Of a stretch of 32,749 nucleotides of DNA, positions 26,763 through 29,775 are shown one piece after another. The DNA is from Lysobacterales bacterium. GTDB lineage: Bacteria; Pseudomonadota; Gammaproteobacteria; Xanthomonadales; S139-57. The position numbers and the translations under genes were made by a program. Within the stretch, counting starts at the first letter, position 1, and every line of letters starts with the position of its first letter. Below the pieces are notes generated by a model, which saw only the letters and a program-made list of their open reading frames with translations, ran no database searches and was not told where the DNA came from. The stretch is taken from assembly GCA_015485125.1 (NCBI GenBank), contig WFUE01000053.1, positions 1-32,749 on the forward strand, given 5' to 3'.

Positions 26763-27242
26763 ATGGCCAAGCACAAGAAAAAACCCAAGGAAAGCGGCAG
26801 TACCATCGCCACCAACCGCAAGGCCCGCTTCGAGTTTCATCTGCACGAACGGCTGGAAGCGGGGCTGGCGCTGGAAGGCTGGGAAGTCAAGAGCCTGCGT
26901 GCCGGCCGGATCAACTTCGATGAAAGCTTCGTCCAGATCGACAAGGGCGAGGCCTGGCTGCATGGTGCCCGCATCACTCCCCTGCCTTCGGCTTCCACCC
27001 ACAACCCGGCTGACCCGGTACGCAAGCGCAAGCTGTTGCTGCACAAGCACGAAATCAACCGCTTGATCGGCGTGGTGGAACGCAAGGGCATGACCCTCGT
27101 GCCCACCGCCCTCTACTGGAAGAAGGGCAAGATCAAGCTGGAAATCGCCGTGGCCGAAGGCAAGAAACTGCACGACAAGCGAGAAACCGCCAAGAACCGC
27201 GACTGGCAGCGGGAAAAGGCCCGTGTACTGAAACACGGCTGA
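26763..27242 (+). CDS. smpB: SsrA-binding protein SmpB
   Basis: A 159-residue tmRNA partner for rescue of stalled ribosomes. Motifs include [11 protein letters not shown] near the N-terminus, [14 protein letters not shown], the LLLHKHEI segment and the basic tail [21 protein letters not shown], which enters the decoding centre. ATG 26763 follows a perfect GGAGGA site. An extended -10 element, TGCTAGAAT (26732-26740), is a likely promoter. No tmRNA gene was found next to it. Confidence 0.97.
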
Positions 27243-27252
27243 CCGCCAGCAC

Positions 27253-27283
27253 TTGACCTGGAGCCAACTCCAGCTGTTATGCT
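27253..27283 (+). promoter_or_regulatory. MerR-type metal-responsive promoter P1
   Basis: TTGACC and TATGCT are separated by 19 bp, the overlong spacer typical of MerR-family activation. Centred in it is the dyad CTGGAG-CCAA-CTCCAG, the kind bound by CueR/ZntR-like regulators. The predicted transcription start falls at about 27290, on the ATG of the next gene. Confidence 0.87.
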
Positions 27284-27289
27284 CTCCAT

Positions 27290-27547
27290 ATGAAAGTGGA
27301 ACTGTTCTCCTCTGGCCATTGCCCTGCTTGCCAGCAAGCCGAACACCGCCTGGACGAAGTATTGCAACTCACCGGGCTGACGGGACGTGTAGCGTTGTAC
27401 AAACGACGACTGCCCGATGATCTGGATCGTGCGGTGACACTGGGTGTCAAGGCCCTCCCGGCCCTGGCCATCGACGACCAGCTGGTGATCACTGGCCTGC
27501 CCAGCAGACAGCAACTGCACCAGTTGCTGAAGGCGGAAACGTCATGA
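27290..27547 (+). CDS. Small thioredoxin/glutaredoxin-fold protein with CPAC motif
   Basis: An 85-residue protein with a minimal thioredoxin fold. It begins with strand MKVELFSSG, then the redox CPAC (Cys11, Cys14), and has a cis-proline in KALPALAID (Pro57). No signal peptide is present, so it is cytoplasmic. It could reduce metal-bound thiols, pass a metal ion or buffer the regulator. There is no Shine-Dalgarno, and the start codon coincides with the predicted transcription start of P1, so it is probably translated from a leaderless mRNA. It overlaps the merR start by ATGA. Confidence 0.85.
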   Translation: MKVELFSSGHCPACQQAEHRLDEVLQLTGLTGRVALYKRRLPDDLDRAVTLGVKALPALAIDDQLVITGLPSRQQLHQLLKAETS

Positions 27548-27957
27548 ACGGCCTGAGCATTCGTCAAGCGAGTGAACATACCGGCTTCAGCAGCGACACT
27601 TTGCGCTATTACGAAAAACTGGGCCTGATCGGGCCTGTACCTCGCAGTCCTTCCGGCCAGCGCCGCTATGGTGAAAAGGAACTGTCACAACTGCGTTTCA
27701 TCCAGCGTGCCCGCAAGATGCACTTCAGTCTGGAGGAAATCGCTCTGTTGATGACACTGCGGCAACAGCCACTGCAAGTGCAGCAGGAAGTACGTACCCT
27801 GACCGCCACCAAACTGAAACAGATCGAGGAAACCCTGCAAGCCCTGGAACATCTGCGAGATGAGCTGCATCTGCTGCTTAACCTGTGTCCCGGTGACGAG
27901 CAGGGCCATTGCCCCATCATCGAACAGCTGGAAAAAAAAGATACAAGCAGCGCTTGA
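27544..27957 (+). CDS. MerR-family heavy-metal regulator, CueR-like
   Basis: A 137-residue regulator. Its winged helix is SIRQASEHTGFSSDTLRYYEKLGLI with the RSPSGQRRY wing, followed by a long dimerisation helix and a C-terminal metal loop. The loop is Cys115-PGDEQGH-Cys123-PII, with the C-x7-C spacing of CueR (Cys112, Cys120). At the place of CueR Ser77, which is Cys in divalent-metal sensors such as ZntR, it has Gln80. This suggests an unusual specificity. It most likely acts on the two dyad promoters flanking this gene pair, so it is autoregulated. Confidence 0.92.
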   Translation: MNGLSIRQASEHTGFSSDTLRYYEKLGLIGPVPRSPSGQRRYGEKELSQLRFIQRARKMHFSLEEIALLMTLRQQPLQVQQEVRTLTATKLKQIEETLQALEHLRDELHLLLNLCPGDEQGHCPIIEQLEKKDTSSA

Positions 27958-27984
27958 CCTGGAGTTGGCTCCAGGGAATAAACT
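27954..27984 (+). promoter_or_regulatory. MerR-type metal-responsive promoter P2
   Basis: TTGACC, 19 bp, TAAACT, with the dyad CTGGAG-TTGG-CTCCAG. The dyad arms are identical to P1, and the central four bases are their reverse complement. The -35 box overlaps the stop codon of the merR gene. Transcription would begin near 27991 and reads into the outer-membrane protein, MerP-like and MerT-like genes. Confidence 0.88.
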
Positions 27985-28015
27985 GACCTCGTGTTCATTG
28001 AAAAAACGGTCTGTT

Positions 28016-28765
28016 ATGTACAAAAAATGGTTCCTGCTGTTATTGATCACACCAACCAGCATCTGGGCCCACGACCCAATCTTTGGTCTGGGACCGCATG
28101 TGCTCTACAAGAACGGCGTGGAAGCCGCGCTGGACTGGAAAGGCATTGAAAACGACGGATTGAAAAACCAGACCGGGCTGGAACTCACCTATGGCATCAC
28201 CGGTGACTGGGCCGCCGGGCTGGAACTGCCCGTGGACGAAAACGCCAACCTGGGTGAAAGCGCATGGTTCAGCAAATATCGCTTCTGGCGCAAGGACAGC
28301 CTGGGCCAGCAACAAAGCGCCTCCATTCTTCTGCGCTACGAAGGCAGCGAGGCACAACCAGGGTGGATTGCCGGCCTGGCCTGGGGTCACGAAAGCCGGC
28401 GGTCCTATCGATGGGCCAGCCTGCGCTATCGCAAGGCCAAGGAAAACGACCAGGGTCTGCGCGCGGGTGACGGCTGGAAACTGGACCTGGTGGCTGGATA
28501 CCGGCCCTGGCTGACAGGCTATCTGCAACCGGACACCGTCTTCATGGTCGAATTGAACGGGGAGCGGCAAGACCGGGCACAGATCAATGGCCAGGTTCTG
28601 CAAGACAGCGGCGGACAGCGGCTGTTTCTCTCGCCCGGCATCTTCTGGACCCTGCGCAACTTTGCAGTCAAGGCCGGTGTGCAACTGCCGCTGATCCAGG
28701 ACATGAACAATCCGGCATTGGAAATCGACTATCGGACACGCTTGACCCTTGAATGGCACTACTGA
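28016..28765 (+). CDS. Putative outer-membrane beta-barrel protein of the metal operon
   Basis: A 249-residue exported protein: signal peptide WFLLLLITPTSIWA, then a mature start HDPIFGLGPHVLYKNG. The body alternates aromatic and small residues in strand-sized blocks (TGDWAAGLELPV, SILLRYEG, WASLRYRKA, FAVKAGVQLPLI) and ends in LTLEWHY, an aromatic end expected for an outer-membrane barrel. About ten to twelve strands could be drawn. No specific family was recognised with confidence; it resembles proteins loosely annotated as transporters of the MetA-pathway type. It is the first gene after P2. The initiation region is weak, and ATG 28016 is chosen for the signal peptide. Confidence 0.75.
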   Translation: MYKKWFLLLLITPTSIWAHDPIFGLGPHVLYKNGVEAALDWKGIENDGLKNQTGLELTYGITGDWAAGLELPVDENANLGESAWFSKYRFWRKDSLGQQQSASILLRYEGSEAQPGWIAGLAWGHESRRSYRWASLRYRKAKENDQGLRAGDGWKLDLVAGYRPWLTGYLQPDTVFMVELNGERQDRAQINGQVLQDSGGQRLFLSPGIFWTLRNFAVKAGVQLPLIQDMNNPALEIDYRTRLTLEWHY

Positions 28766-28775
28766 GGAGGAAATC

Positions 28776-29090
28776 ATGAAAACGAACGCACCCCTGATAA
28801 AAACCTTGCTGGCAGCAATACTCATCTGGATGGCTGGGGCAGCCTGGGCTGGTGGCAAGCAGGCCTGGGAAATGCGCGTGGACGGCCTGGCCTGTCCTTA
28901 CTGCGCCTATGGTGTCGAGAAAAAACTCAAGGCTATCGACGGCGTGGAACAGGTACAGGTGGATCTGGAACAGGGTCTGGTCAAGGTACAGGCCAAGGAC
29001 AGCGTACAACTGACCGAACCGCAAATGGAAACCTTGTTCCGTGACGCCGGCTTCACCTTTCGCAGCATGAAAAAGCTCGACTTGCCATGA
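28776..29090 (+). CDS. Periplasmic MerP-like heavy-metal-associated protein
   Basis: A 104-residue protein with a cleavable signal peptide (cut likely after AWA, residue 25) and one HMA domain. The metal site is GLACPYC (Cys40, Cys43), followed by [24 protein letters not shown], the classic ferredoxin-like fold pattern. Such proteins bind Cu(I), Hg(II) or related soft metals in the periplasm and pass them to a membrane partner. It starts after a strong GAGGAGGAA site and overlaps the MerT-like gene by ATGA, like merT-merP pairs but in reverse order. Confidence 0.9.
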
Positions 29091-29479
29091 AAGCGCAGAA
29101 ACCGGAGCAGGGCCTGACCTGGCTGGCCCTGTTTGCCAGTTCCGGCACCCTGGTCTGCTGTGCCCTGCCCATTACCCTGGTCACATTGGGCATGGGCGCG
29201 ACAGTAGCCTCGCTGACCAGCAGCCTGCCCATACTCATCACTCTGAGCCAGCACAAGATCTGGGTTTTCGCCTTTTCGGCAATCATGCTGCTGTTCTCGG
29301 GCTGGTTACTGTACCGTCCCGGGCGCAGCTGTCCCACGGATCCGGCACTGGCCGCACAATGCCAGCGCATGCACCGGTGGAATCTCCGGGTCTGGTGGGT
29401 TTCGGTGGCCATCTGGCTAACCGGATTCACCGCCGCCTTCCTCGCCCTGCCCCTGATGCGCTGGCTGGATGGCGCGTAA
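29087..29479 (+). CDS. MerT-like inner-membrane metal transporter
   Basis: A 130-residue protein with three predicted membrane helices (about residues 10-40, 57-77 and 100-126). The first helix holds vicinal Cys24-Cys25, as in MerT, in [15 protein letters not shown] second pair, Cys82 and Cys92, sits in the loop after helix 2, where MerT has Cys76 and Cys82. MerT accepts a metal from MerP and moves it across the inner membrane. No mercuric reductase is present here, so import of Hg(II) would make little sense and another metal or direction is likely. It is the last gene of the operon. Confidence 0.85.
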
Positions 29480-29556: not shown

Positions 29557-29775
29557 ATGGCAAAAGAAGATCAGATCGAAATGGAAGGCACGGTACTGGA
29601 AACCCTGCCCAACACCATGTTTCGAGTCGAACTGGACAACGGCCACATCATCACCGCCCATATTTCCGGCCGCATGCGCAAGCACTATATCCGCATCCTG
29701 ACCGGTGACCGGGTCAAAGTGGAAATGACCCCCTACGATCTTACCAAGGGCCGCATCACCTACCGCGGCAAATAA
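29557..29775 (+). CDS. infA: Translation initiation factor IF-1
   Basis: A 72-residue OB-fold protein that occupies the 30S A site during initiation. The sequence is diagnostic: [36 protein letters not shown] and [11 protein letters not shown]. The ATG at 29557 is chosen; the track start lies within the MerT-like gene. The RBS (GGAG) is somewhat far away. A separate promoter is likely, since this housekeeping gene follows a metal-inducible operon. Confidence 0.97.

Follow-up and report, generated by a model that had tools for sequence, protein, structure and literature searches.

MerR-family metal sensors carry Ser at position 77 when they respond to monovalent ions, without exception, and Cys when they respond to divalent ions (PMC11591864). 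Among the described systems closest to the locus reported here are the mer operons and the cue regulon. Mer operons encode a MerT protein with vicinal Cys residues in the first transmembrane helix and a Cys pair in a loop, together with a periplasmic HMA protein, and are read from MerR-type promoters; the cue regulon is controlled by CueR through CCTTCC-GGAAGG operators and includes copA and cueO. The stretch analyzed here, referred to as the window, is a 32,749-nt contig (WFUE01000053.1) of the 2.41-Mb, 214-contig assembly of a Lysobacterales bacterium. Between smpB, which ends at position 27242, and infA, which starts at 29557, it contains five co-directional forward-strand genes encoding a thioredoxin-fold protein (trx), a MerR regulator, an outer-membrane beta-barrel, an HMA protein, and a MerT-like protein. 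Computational analysis established the gene set, its promoters, a regulon exclusive to it, its conservation, and its link to MerA, and the five genes are a real, self-regulated, and conserved metal-handling unit; a chance cluster is ruled out by the conservation and the operator. A previous sequence-only reading had located the same five genes between smpB and infA, where all of them were found, and its proposal of a coherent unit that reaches from the cytoplasm through both membranes and the periplasm, under a MerR of its own, was supported. We tentatively favor the reading that the unit is an accessory soft-metal transport relay that stands beside mer in most relatives, with Hg(II) as the most likely ion, which would be passed to a MerA (mercury reductase) encoded on another contig.

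The unit has two promoters. P1 (27253..27283; TTGACC-N19-TATGCT) lies 6 nt upstream of the trx start codon, and P2 (27954..27984; TTGACC-N19-TAAACT) has the merR stop codon inside its -35 box. Both contain the dyad CTGGAG-N4-CTCCAG, which resembles that of Escherichia coli zntA. With just these 6 nt separating the -10 box of P1 from the trx start (27278-27290), the trx transcript may be leaderless. The twin MerR-type promoters that had been proposed from the letters of the window are both present, and their positions, 27253 and 27954, are the sole two at which the operator pattern TTGACNTGGAGNNNNCTCCANNNNNTANNNT matches anywhere in the genome, for which about 7e-5 matches would be expected at this genome size. 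No match to the reversed control pattern was obtained in 251 genomes (the window genome and 250 further genomes of the order). The operator pattern itself occurred in only 3 of the 250 further genomes, two of which hold the gene set, while the third (G104) has a barrel-trx-merR arrangement with a MerR of the same clade, adjoining merA. Among 40 genomes picked for holding the set or its core, 28 contained the pattern. Fourteen relative loci with secondary or outlying operator sites were read individually: in 13 of them, the site is upstream of a barrel, HMA, MerT-like, or thioredoxin gene of the set, and in the 14th (L199, genome G026), it is upstream of an apparent broken barrel gene. One of these 13 loci has a second site in front of a metallo-beta-lactamase-fold gene. 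In one genome (L204:1948-5345), the operator stands before a gene of this fold, with an MMPL-family transporter gene next downstream, and a wider regulon is possible.

A gene-neighborhood comparison, as suggested with the sequence-only reading, revealed that the barrel, HMA, MerT-like, thioredoxin, and MerR genes recur together, in shuffled order, in vent and deep-sea Gammaproteobacteria; the gene labels of relatives come from mechanically called open reading frames and home-made hidden Markov models, and single labels may be wrong. A scan of named genomes yielded 80 loci, mostly from vent and deep-sea gammaproteobacterial metagenome-assembled genomes and tubeworm symbionts. In total, 30 of the 42 loci with the MerR clade described below hold MerT-like, HMA, barrel, and thioredoxin genes together, and an NHL-propeller gene is added in nine relative loci. 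The search with the MerT-like protein matched 41 of the 250 order genomes, many of them distantly. No prior description of the gene set was found in the open-access literature. Other arrangements were also observed. A more distant cluster from different families of this order (L042-L058; e.g., L058:3816-5222) combines an HMA and a MerT-like gene with a gene for a signal-peptide protein starting ARPI[TA][YF]; it follows a gene for a small Cys-rich protein in some loci, and no barrel match was seen. Vibrio plasmids (L151:5284-7419 and L152:5255-7125) carry merR, a gene for a GDCCVxC protein, a MerT-like gene, and a small barrel gene.

The regulator (137 amino acids; 27544..27957) resembles CueR in its C115-x7-C123 loop ending in CPII, which aligns with C112-x7-C120 of CueR in a PDB-based alignment, and in the 19-bp spacer of its promoters. 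CueR is also its best-scoring named model (TIGR02044), but the score of 118 bits is below the curated cut-off of 147.4, and the score against the mercury MerR model TIGR02051 (90 bits) is below the cut-off of 150.85. The third metal-binding Cys, in the dimerization helix, is absent, and Gln80 occupies the site that corresponds to Ser77 of CueR. Unlike CueR, the protein also lacks the C-terminal CCHH, its operator is not CCTTCC-GGAAGG, and neither copA nor cueO is in the unit. Sensing of Zn, Cd, or Pb was rejected since the third Cys is missing. Across the 53-sequence clade to which the regulator belongs, position 77 is Arg in 39 sequences, Lys in 12, and Gln in 2. The branch that sets this R/K/Q77 clade apart has support of 100/99 and was present in all bootstrap trees checked; of the four reference sequences included, the CueR one agrees with the PDB alignment. 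Because it has neither Ser nor Cys at position 77, the clade falls outside both the monovalent and the divalent sensor classes of that rule and is an unclassified MerR subgroup. The label "CueR-like" given to the regulator by the sequence-only reading did not hold, given the subthreshold score, the lack of Ser77, and the different clade and operator, whereas its statement that the unit departs from the standard mer, cue, and cop operons agrees with the membership tests: such an operon was rejected by the model scores, by the Ser77 and third-Cys tests, and by the absence of merA from the unit.

The clade goes with the operator TGGAG-N4-CTCCA, while mer operons at the same loci have CCGTAC-N4-GTACGG instead and a Ser77 regulator at locus L136 has CCTTCC-type (CueR-type) operators. 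Loci L037 and L039, with the order MerR-barrel-HMA-MerT, have a Cys77-type MerR and the operator ACCATGAAG-N4-CTTCATGGT with a 20-bp spacer; here, regulators have been swapped on one shared core.

The barrel gene (28016..28765) encodes a protein with a signal peptide, and the outer-membrane barrel proposed earlier was borne out by an AlphaFold model with 12 strands (pLDDT 86.4), whose nearest PDB folds found with Foldseek are FapF (5o68) and the COG4313 channel 4rl8 (TM-score 0.65 to 4rl8). In COG4313 channels (e.g., Pput2725 and SphA; PF13557), an N-terminal segment is located in the lumen, and hydrophobic molecules are the presumed cargo (PMC4493636). The window protein shares their fold but has no match to any Pfam model (3 of the 8 relatives first scanned match PF13557), and its gene lies in a metal-related context rather than one of hydrophobic-compound uptake or amyloid export. 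The mature N terminus, HDPIFGLGPH, also differs from the known channels in that His residues of the N-terminal segment are invariant: H19 and H28, as well as the C-terminal H248, are conserved throughout an alignment of 42 relatives, which hints at metal binding. No barrel relatives were found on plasmids at an E value of 1e-3. The MerT-like inner-membrane protein (130 amino acids; 29087..29479) has C24-C25 in the first transmembrane helix and the loop pair C82/C92, all four invariant in an alignment of 60 relatives. It scored 24.6 bits against Pfam MerT (PF02411), below the gathering cut-off of 32.9; its AlphaFold model is all-helical, and Foldseek returned no significant match for it.

The two remaining proteins both carry CxxC motifs. 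The HMA-fold protein (28776..29090) has a signal peptide and the motif C40-P-Y-C43; it matches Pfam HMA above the cut-off (37.1 bits) but reaches only 32.9 bits against MerP (TIGR02052), below the cut-off of 92.55. In most relatives, the motif is CP[YF]C, which recalls glutaredoxin. The trx gene (27290..27547) encodes a cytoplasmic protein of 85 amino acids with C11-P-A-C14 (Pfam Thioredoxin_3, 44.3 bits, above the cut-off), and a thioredoxin-family gene accompanies the R/K/Q77 clade in most relatives, with C-x-[KR]-C as the commonest motif. In about 25 relatives, a gene for a double CcdA/DsbD_TM-like membrane protein (FFEPCTIATHTLF ... CPFCTPALL; Pfam DsbD_TM) is located beside the thioredoxin gene (e.g., L080:7010-8311, L099:6644-7960, and L078:6788-8089); it is not part of the window set. 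Thiol relays of the DsbD/CcdA type, such as ScsB and SoxV, provide a possible parallel, since many relatives have genes for a cytoplasmic thioredoxin and a CcdA-like membrane protein next to that of a CxxC protein of the periplasm. The unit could be a redox system rather than a metal importer, in which thioredoxin, with the CcdA/DsbD-like protein where present, passes electrons to the CP[YF]C HMA protein for the repair or reduction of metal-damaged periplasmic thiols. The CcdA-like genes and the prevalence of CP[YF]C over MTCxxC agree with this idea. However, the membrane partner was not found in the window genome by a search that had no positive control, the periplasmic partner has an HMA fold, in which CxxC normally binds metal, and the MerT-like and barrel proteins are left unexplained. 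We consider a redox system of this kind unlikely.

The sequence-only reading had taken the absence of MerA from the cluster as a sign of a separate route. The unit and the window do lack merA, but a complete merT-merP-merA with a mercury-type merR is located on another contig (C89) of the same genome, and merA flanks the set in a genome of the same genus, so that the argument from missing merA or copA fails. That reading had also counted merA or copA beside the set in relatives against its proposal; merA does adjoin the set, and P-type ATPase and multicopper oxidase genes adjoin the barrel-HMA-MerT core. In the order sample, MerA scored above the cut-off in 5 of the 6 set-bearing genomes, compared with 24 of 250 overall, and in the sixth (the same-genus genome G006; locus L143), a truncated MerA at a contig end lies a few kilobases from the set, on one 4.9-kb contig with it (Fisher p, 3e-5 without G006 and 5e-7 with it). 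Outside the order, MerA exceeded the cut-off in 27 of 38 genomes that hold the set, and genuine MerA lies within about 6 kb of the set in several loci. MerB, a sign of organomercury handling, was present in only 7 of 37 set-bearing genomes. Mer genes near the set in several relatives, together with the MerT and HMA homologies, would also fit an ordinary divergent mer transport cassette with shuffled neighbors and no new mechanism. We consider this very unlikely, since the window genome also holds a classical merT-merP-merA-merR, the regulator clade and operator are separate, and the extra barrel and thioredoxin genes are conserved. The unit is like a mer operon in its MerT homology with the vicinal and loop Cys residues, its periplasmic HMA protein, its MerR-type promoter, and the usual presence of MerA in the same genome. 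It differs in scoring below the MerT and MerP cut-offs, in a regulator without the third Cys, in the 19-bp spacer and TGGAG-N4-CTCCA operator (CCGTAC-N4-GTACGG and mostly 20 bp in mer), and in the addition of barrel and thioredoxin genes with merA outside the unit.

For the favored mercury relay, we infer the metal, the direction of transport, and each hand-over step as follows. The regulator would bind a linear two-thiolate metal ion and remodel both promoters with their 19-bp spacers, P1 driving trx-merR and P2 driving the barrel, HMA, and MerT-like genes. The barrel may let a neutral metal complex in or out at the outer membrane, and the metal would then be bound by the periplasmic CPYC HMA protein and handed by the MerT-like protein from Cys24-Cys25 to Cys82/Cys92 in its loop. 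In the cytoplasm, the CPAC protein may keep thiols reduced or accept the metal, and Hg(II) would finally reach MerA, whose gene lies elsewhere in the genome.

Several observations weigh against this reading. The regulator lacks the third Cys used by known Hg(II) sensors, and true mer operons at the same loci carry a different operator. Ten of the 38 set-bearing genomes have no MerA match, although incomplete metagenome-assembled genomes are numerous among them. CusA-type pumps occur within 6 kb of 14 of the 42 loci and are commoner there than MerA. The invariant His residues of the barrel suit Cu better than Hg. Genes for Hg and Cu are both common in vent genomes, and habitat could produce the MerA link. 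A copper(I)/silver(I) relay is a close and quite possible alternative. Here, the two-Cys regulator would respond to a monovalent ion, the barrel, with its conserved N-terminal His residues, would exchange copper with the outside, Cu(I) would be shuttled by the HMA and MerT-like proteins, and the association with MerA would reflect only the gathering of resistance genes in vent genomes. CueR being the closest named regulator model, a two-Cys loop without the third Cys, the CusA-type pumps, and the barrel His residues are all consistent with it, as are two loci with copper genes around the core: L136 has the order multicopper oxidase-barrel-HMA-MerT-MerR(Ser77)-P-type ATPase with CueR-type operators, and in the Vibrio plasmid locus L152, the core lies between a P-type ATPase gene and cupredoxin, copB, and multicopper oxidase genes. 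However, these copper-linked examples are under Ser77 or Cys-type regulators and not the R/K/Q77 clade, MerA is enriched in set-bearing genomes, and the clade lacks the Ser77 said to be universal in monovalent sensors (PMC11591864). In addition, bringing copper in when it is already in excess would do harm, unless the MerT-like protein works as an exporter. For an importer that is switched on by excess metal, a sink in the cytoplasm, for example MerA, is probably required, and mercury is put slightly ahead of copper for this reason.

If the mercury relay is correct, the set would extend the mer transport scheme by one step at the outer membrane and one of thiol redox chemistry, and the organisms concerned are exposed to natural metal from vents. 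A broader proposal, which we regard as possible but rather speculative, is that the R/K/Q77 clade is a third MerR selectivity class governing a dedicated relay of outer-membrane channel, glutaredoxin-like CPYC HMA protein, MerT-like protein, and cytoplasmic thioredoxin, with a CcdA-like electron carrier in many relatives, that would work alongside mer and carry a soft metal as well as electrons through the two membranes. The rule that metal choice follows Ser or Cys at one position is directly testable with this large natural Arg/Lys/Gln clade, which goes with a single operator and a single set of genes.
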